NCBI GenBank assembly: GCA_029194535.1
Contig: JARFXR010000001.1
Span: 2,116,721 to 2,180,720, forward strand
Direction of reading: 5' to 3'
DNA length: 64,000 nucleotides
Source: Nitrospira sp.
Lineage (GTDB): Bacteria > Nitrospirota > Nitrospiria > Nitrospirales > Nitrospiraceae
The notes under the pieces are model-generated. The model was given only the letters and a program-made list of their open reading frames with translations, searched no databases and was not told where the DNA came from. Within the stretch, counting starts at the first letter, position 1. Each line of letters opens with the position of its first letter. Below, piece by piece: positions 55,770 to 56,164 of this stretch. A program made the translations under genes and the position numbers.

Positions 55770-56087
55770 CGGCACGAGCGAGCAAGCTGACTACAATACA
55801 GCACTAAAGGTGTCGATCCCGTCGCCACAAAATCTAGGCTCGGGGTTGAGCAAGCAGTTTTGCATCGCCATCAACACCGAAGGCATTTATCCGCGCGCGT
55901 CAAAACGATACAGCGATAATAAGCGCGCGGCACGAGCGAGCTTGGTTTGGTCGGGGCGAGAGGATTTGGCCTTCGGCCCGGCGTCTTCGCTGACGGTCGC
56001 ACATCAAGCATAGATACTGGTGGCGTCTATCCGTGCGCATCGATAACAAAAACCGATAATGAGCGCACGGCACGAGCGAGCTTGGTT
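55770..56087 (-). repeat. tandem repeats downstream of tRNA-Pro that copy the tRNA 3' end
   Basis: A 41-bp sequence at 56068-56108, half inside tRNA-Pro, recurs exactly at 55928-55968, 140 bp away; the tRNA part of the second copy is 55948-55968 (last 21 bases with CCA). Each is followed by a GC-rich hairpin and GGATARAYGCC. A third, decayed copy (CGGCACGAGCGAG) is at 55770-55782. The layout is the same as downstream of tRNA-Arg. Confidence 0.7.
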
Positions 56088-56164
56088 TGGTCGGGGCGAG
56101 AGGATTTGAACCTCCGACATCCTGCTCCCAAAGCAGGCGCGCTACCAGGCTGCGCTACGCCCCG
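56088..56164 (-). tRNA. tRNA-Pro (anticodon TGG)
   Basis: On the - strand CGGGGCGTAGCGCAG at the 5' end, anticodon stem CCTGC/GCAGG with loop TTTGGGA, T-arm GGAGGTTCAAATCCTC, acceptor CGCCCCG and encoded CCA. Length 77. It overlaps the start of the repeat array listed above. Confidence 0.95.

Follow-up and report, generated by a model that had tools for sequence, protein, structure and literature searches.

Why does the 3′ end of tRNA-Pro(TGG) occur a second time shortly downstream of the gene, and why do the hairpins that follow it recur behind tRNA-Arg(TCT)? An earlier note on this DNA had proposed a mini-element that targets tRNA 3′ ends. We followed the repeats through the window (the whole stretch of 64 kb analysed here), the genome to which it belongs (4.0 Mb, 5 contigs; G000) and related genomes. 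The repeats form a family of hairpin elements of ~95-100 bp, termed E. In the reading that we prefer and regard as probable, E is a non-autonomous miniature mobile element that inserts in one orientation after CC and leaves two kinds of address intact: tRNA or tmRNA ends, and Shine-Dalgarno (SD) sequences. The earlier observation is confirmed; its interpretation is partly supported, being right in kind but incomplete.

Repeat arrays at two tRNA genes

The target gene, tRNA-Pro(TGG), lies at 56088-56164(-) (ARAGORN; Rfam tRNA, 67.4 bits). Direct reading and a repeat search showed that 56068-56108 and 55928-55968(-) are identical over 41 bp. The repeat had been taken for a copy of the tRNA 3′ end, which is correct for 21 bp, CCA included, while the other 20 bp are the head of the E copy that follows CCA. 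This first copy (56015-56090(-); covariance model R1, 79.9 bits, E-value 6.6e-20) is flush with the tRNA, so that the CCA at 56088-56090(-) doubles as the first three positions of the E model, and it consists of CCAAACC, a small hairpin, a hairpin with an 8-bp stem and a GGATA tail. The second copy, at 55875-55950(-) (81.6 bits, E-value 2.4e-20), is flush with the copied tRNA end and closes with the tail GGATAAATGCCTTCGGTG at 55875-55892(-). Further downstream, the third copy is worn and carries the tail GGATCGACACCTTTAGTG (55802-55862(-); weak, 17 bits, E-value 0.0019). The third copy that had been placed at 55770 is merely a head remnant of 33 nt (55751-55783(-)), with 79-82% identity between copies and 5 bits, not significant with R1. 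Another inverted-repeat family flanks the locus on both sides (55530-55660 and 56170-56290), and related genomes have many matches to part of it, at 75-79%.

The second target gene in the window, tRNA-Arg(TCT) at 50891-50967(-) (ARAGORN; Rfam), is followed by an E copy flush with its CCA (50814-50893(-), 79.7 bits) and by two tandem copies at 50728-50809(-) (59.4 bits) and 50645-50724(-) (42.6 bits). Between the units of this array there is no copy of a tRNA end. The arrays do share layout and tail, as had been claimed: R1 finds E at both genes, and the tail pattern of the tRNA-Pro array is present twice, exactly, in the tRNA-Arg array. Chance is an unlikely source, also as claimed, with five matches to the tail pattern (≤3 mismatches) against 0.49 expected and five reached in 0 of 100 shuffles. 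All six R1 copies in the window lie at these two genes, on the tRNA strand. Rfam searches of the window and 16 loci at the gathering threshold returned only tRNA, tmRNA, rRNA and one T-box (at the two arrays, the two tRNAs alone), and a search of the array with E-values up to 10 returned no further family.

The origin of the copied tRNA end is apparent from G001, which is 85% identical to the window locus over 618 bp. Here, a ~140-bp palindromic insert, X, stands between tRNA-Pro and E, and its E-proximal end is a copy of the 3′ half of tRNA-Pro. The right end of X plus the first four bases of E (AACC) form 60 bp that are identical in G001 and between the two E copies of the window. Thus, X accounts for the repeated tRNA end in the window; its right part remains at 55948-56003(-) with the 21-bp tRNA-end copy at 55948-55968, and the 41-bp match combines the end of X with the head of the E that follows. 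It is X, not E, that carries the duplicated tRNA end, and the tRNA-Arg array has no tRNA copy between its units. A full X is found at tRNA-Pro(CGG) of the window genome, with a similar layout at tRNA-Thr(CGT). Repeated tRNA 3′ ends occur at tRNA-Pro (21 bp), Arg-ACG, Pro-CGG and Thr-CGT and are not the rule at the 13 flush sites of this genome. The X elements seen at L219, L034, L225 and L227 are palindromes of ~140 bp with a reverse complement of the T-arm near one end and a tRNA 3′ half at the other, and these parts match the tRNA that hosts each X.

At tRNA-Lys(CTT), a 9.7-kb island was observed with a tyrosine integrase (L256:11418-12677(+)) and a 45-bp att copy (L256, G000:C1:611500-624700). 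E lies outside the island, flush behind the distal att copy, and so probably stood beside tRNA-Lys before the island arrived. A search for an integrase or a longer element carrying the tail had been advised; no long form of E that bears an integrase came to light.

Fold and distribution of the element

After many tRNA genes the order is CCA, AACC, a small hairpin whose loop is CTTG or TTCG, a longer hairpin GCCG...CGG, and GGATAAACACCTTCAGTG. The complete element runs from ATACC (or AAACC) through the small TTCG/CTTG-loop hairpin, a hairpin of variable sequence with an 8-bp stem and the tail CGGATAAACACCTCMAGTG to a pyrimidine tract ending in CTCC. Sixteen copies were aligned to build R1, which is biased toward tRNA ends because CCA is part of the model. 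In this alignment, two-sided changes were seen at 8 of 11 predicted pairs. An alignment of 138 copies had 97.1% of its cells paired (slid controls, <58%) and 221 two-sided changes, compared with 58.7 in shuffles. The base pairs of E are therefore kept by compensatory change, a signal that fits folding as RNA or as single-stranded DNA equally. On the element strand, G-T pairs outnumber A-C mismatches by 27:12 (16:4 for tRNA-located copies, 11:8 for the others), a small, post hoc excess hinting that the transcript of tRNA-trailer copies folds as RNA.

At 29 array junctions, a pyrimidine tract precedes the next ATACC and ends most often in T-C-C, indicating that the 3′ end of E resembles CTCC and hence its own target, CCTCC. 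E is bounded less sharply on the right than on the left. Neither the array junctions nor pairs of occupied and empty sites gave a clear case of target duplication beyond CC/CTCC. Perfect tandem arrays, and E copies nested within E copies, were found in G017.

The window genome holds 32 copies counted with R1, 25 of which lie ≤600 bp downstream of, and on the same strand as, 16 of its 43 tRNA/tmRNA genes (binomial P ~2e-56); 13 copies are flush with CCA. A tail-only pattern, which is without the CCA bias, gave four exact sites and five with two mismatches (reversed control, 0); eight of these nine are at tRNA or tmRNA genes, and the ninth (L006) is in coding-like sequence. The shared tail is thus present at other tRNA genes genome-wide. 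At an E-value ≤1e-6, R1 matched 57 of 246 sampled genomes of the phylum, all of them Nitrospiraceae and equal to 57 of the 62 listed for that family; a looser threshold added a few weak matches in one sister family. A pattern scan of named genomes matched Nitrospirae bacterium RIFCSPLOWO2_02_FULL_62_14 and a Nitrospiraceae bacterium from Lake Baikal. Up to 119 copies per genome were counted (G017), with 63 in G009, 38 in G024 and 25 in G028. No E-like DNA was matched in plasmid and phage collections, and similarity to E. coli genomes was limited to 29 bp of the tRNA-Pro end.

The same tRNA gene may be occupied or empty. E follows the CCA of tRNA-Pro(TGG) in G000, G003, G007, G010 and G017, and is missing there in many other genomes, including G004 and G005 of the window's own genus, where the earlier note had advised looking for empty sites among close relatives.

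Some copies were seen in other surroundings. In two genera, an E copy sits inside the loop of an apparent terminator hairpin 3′ of 5S rRNA (L112 in G017, L132 in G007; the 5S rRNA beside it was seen in G007). An E-like copy shares the same upstream sequence, gaggaggtACATACC, in two genera (L066 in G000, L212 in G009), and in G000 it is close to a T-box leader.

A second address at Shine-Dalgarno sequences

In G017 and G009, the majority of E copies lie away from tRNA genes, and their heads abut SD sequences in antisense. Read on the gene strand, such a site consists of the reversed E, GGTAT|GGAGG, 5-7 bases and a start codon, and the SD-to-start spacing peaks at 5-7 nt. When 75 array starts were classed by regular expression, 18 fell at tRNA ends (two more were added by eye) and 37 at SD sites with an open frame, the latter count being approximate since one is a tRNA-Ser remnant. 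GGAGG was directly flush in 32 of the 37, compared with a background of 0.2% of positions. Measured from the head, the first SD sequence with an open reading frame came at offset 0 in 33 of 90 arrays from two other genera, and no more than 5 nt away in 40. The tail side of the same arrays served as control: only seven such sequences occurred within 60 nt, and these were scattered.

The exact flush pattern (CCTCC-head) was present in 23 of 118 genomes of the family, with one occurrence in the window genome, 31 in G017 and 47 in G025, and its reversed control gave 0 everywhere. In G025, which represents a third genus, 27 of 44 heads abutted SD sites within ~375 kb chosen around flush SD sites, and further heads were found at the ends of tRNA-Ser, Val, Arg, Pro and Cys. 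This is the densest genome, and the ~375 kb contained more E copies and also composites. The proposal of a mini-element that targets tRNA 3′ ends is supported by the 16 tRNA/tmRNA genes that carry E in the window genome, but it omits the SD sites, which are a second address and take the majority of copies in related genera. In many SD-flush heads of G025 (L259-L278), the main hairpin was seen to be replaced by a palindrome of ~65 bp with GTAG in front (TCAGTTTTCAGT...ACTGAGAACTGA), which is likely to represent a second repeat family that has inserted into E.

Several SD loci of G009 were sought in G028, a member of the same genus, and five were located. At four of the five, both neighbouring genes are kept and both genomes have an SD-like sequence, with E in G009 alone. 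In these occupied sites, E starts directly after CCTCC, with an exact left boundary. By their translations, two genes at these loci resemble zapA and an HU/IHF gene. The pairs represent either precise insertion or precise loss, and the site is exact either way; we infer that insertion is the more plausible of the two.

Proposed mode of spread and relation to known repeats

The tRNA and SD addresses have only CC|A in common, and one short motif alone does not account for both. We propose that the head of E inserts directly after CC and in one orientation, at CC|A of tRNA and tmRNA genes or at CCTCC| (anti-SD), with CC presumably being recognized in a folded single strand. Both addresses would remain functional, because CCA and GGAGG are left whole. 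The copies at tRNA-Pro and tRNA-Arg in the window would have arrived by such insertion, and tandem arrays could result from repeated insertion at the same CC or from slippage between copies. At tRNA-Pro, X, carrying its copy of the tRNA-Pro 3′ end, may have displaced an older E downstream, after which a newer E would have settled at the tRNA end, with loss of the left half of X. More tentatively, E may stand for a class of elements that read translation signals, with an anti-SD-like CTCC 3′ end, and that go always head first onto CCTCC or tRNA/tmRNA CC|A by means of an enzyme not yet described. No gene-bearing long form of E was noticed in an unsystematic look that included the ~375 kb of G025.

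The main rival is that E is a host-functional structured RNA, a tRNA-trailer or 5′-leader module that serves processing or regulation; selection would maintain it, and gene duplication rather than mobility of its own would have spread it. The strong compensatory covariation, the presence of E in nearly all members of the family and the 16:4 ratio on the transcribed strand of tRNA-located copies would suit such a role, and E. coli repeats in a similar position in rRNA operons are processed sRNAs (PMC8144298). We nevertheless consider this explanation unlikely, since orthologous sites are empty within the same genus, transcription runs through E in one sense at tRNA sites and in the other at SD sites, copies at SD-type sites have no strand bias (11:8), and perfect tandem and nested copies occur. 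RNA would also be involved if RNA 3′ ends (tRNA CCA, 16S anti-SD) primed or joined reverse-transcribed E, and on the element strand both addresses (CCA; CCTCC) do resemble the termini at which stable RNAs end. A reverse transcriptase (PF00078), which we rejected as mobilizer, is absent from six E carriers (G000, G007, G009, G024, G025 and G028), and the flanks of SD sites have no 16S similarity beyond CCTCC; this strongly weakens the retro-copy explanation, to which we assign the lowest probability of all.

Movement as a REP/RAYT-type repeat, in which a Y1 (REP-associated) tyrosine transposase acts on single-stranded hairpins, would explain why E is small, palindromic, intergenic and arrayed, with variable stems but kept structure and oriented insertion at a short motif, as in REPs and relatives of IS200/IS605 (PMC3733652). 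Folding of one DNA strand in the manner of IS200/IS605 would also suit the combination of variable stems and kept flanks. The REP/RAYT explanation is improbable here, as the Y1 domain (PF01797) is below threshold in G009, G024 and G028, which have 63, 38 and 25 copies, as none of eight Y1 loci has E within ~1.5 kb, and as the GTAG/CGTC tag at the stem is not in the E consensus; with no correlation between the two, Y1 was rejected as mobilizer. A search for Y2 (PF04986) matched in no control genome and so carries no weight. Scars of tyrosine-integrase islands that attach at tRNA 3′ ends are a very improbable source of the arrays. The tRNA-Lys(CTT) island, with E behind its 45-bp distal att copy, and the tRNA-end copies borne by X are in favour of them, and they would account for X and the duplicated tRNA end, but not for E: beyond most flush copies no tRNA end is repeated (13 genes; the tRNA-Arg array), one conserved fold is found at all sites, and the copies at SD sites, where integrase attachment has no logic, contradict such an origin.

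By layout, the nearest named relatives of E are the tRNA-linked repeats (TLRs; rtT of tyrT) of E. coli. Described in 1978, they number 22 at ten tRNA/rRNA loci, and in each of them 18-19 bp from the 3′ end of the preceding tRNA or rRNA recur; their function is mostly unknown and no origin has been given (PMC8144298). Both are short repeats arrayed directly downstream of tRNA genes (in TLRs, of rRNA genes too), and the tRNA-Pro locus with its X fits the TLR layout. Unlike TLRs, to which it has no sequence relation (Rfam RtT, RF00391, has no match in the window), E folds into two conserved hairpins of its own, often comes without a tRNA copy, and is also found at SD sites. REP/BIME/REPIN repeats with RAYT transposases are likewise small, palindromic, multi-copy, intergenic and arrayed, and occur in operon spacers (PMC3733652, PMC3116915). 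In place of the GTAG/CGTC tag, E has an ATACC/AAACC head and a CGGATA foot (consensus of 16 and 138 copies); its stems vary while the flanking unpaired motifs are kept, it is exactly flush at CCA or SD, and several carriers are without Y1. Bacterial MITEs such as ERIC, RUP and YPAL share with E that they are non-autonomous, <200 bp and fold as RNA (PMC2229807), whereas E has internal rather than terminal inverted repeats, no TA target duplication and two specific addresses. Tyrosine-integrase islands attach at tRNA 3′ ends, of which they leave a copy behind; E carries no integrase or other gene, and the tRNA end is not replaced by it.

Of the open-licence papers searched for Nitrospira repeats, tRNA-linked repeats and repeats next to SD sequences, the one on E. 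coli TLRs alone was relevant (PMC8144298). Repeats abutting SD sequences were not described there, which is weak evidence, and within the searchable literature the SD address appears new relative to TLRs and REP-type repeats. In E, a TLR-like arrangement can be dissected by comparing many genomes, and the SD address exposes the target rule. For a small repeat, such precision in the choice of sites is unusual. An element that inserts beside ribosome-binding sites and leaves them intact can alter the 5′ leaders of genes within operons, and the enzyme that mobilizes it would be new. Because Nitrospiraceae include the main nitrite oxidizers, effects of E on expression would touch the nitrogen cycle.

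A different repeat family with a similar layout, CTCCTCGCTTCGCTCG...ATCTTAAGTG, was observed to abut the CCA of tRNA-Pro in G020, G012, G009, G024 and G011 (L223, L226, L230, L225 and L237, respectively), in one case adjoining a copy of the tRNA-Pro end.
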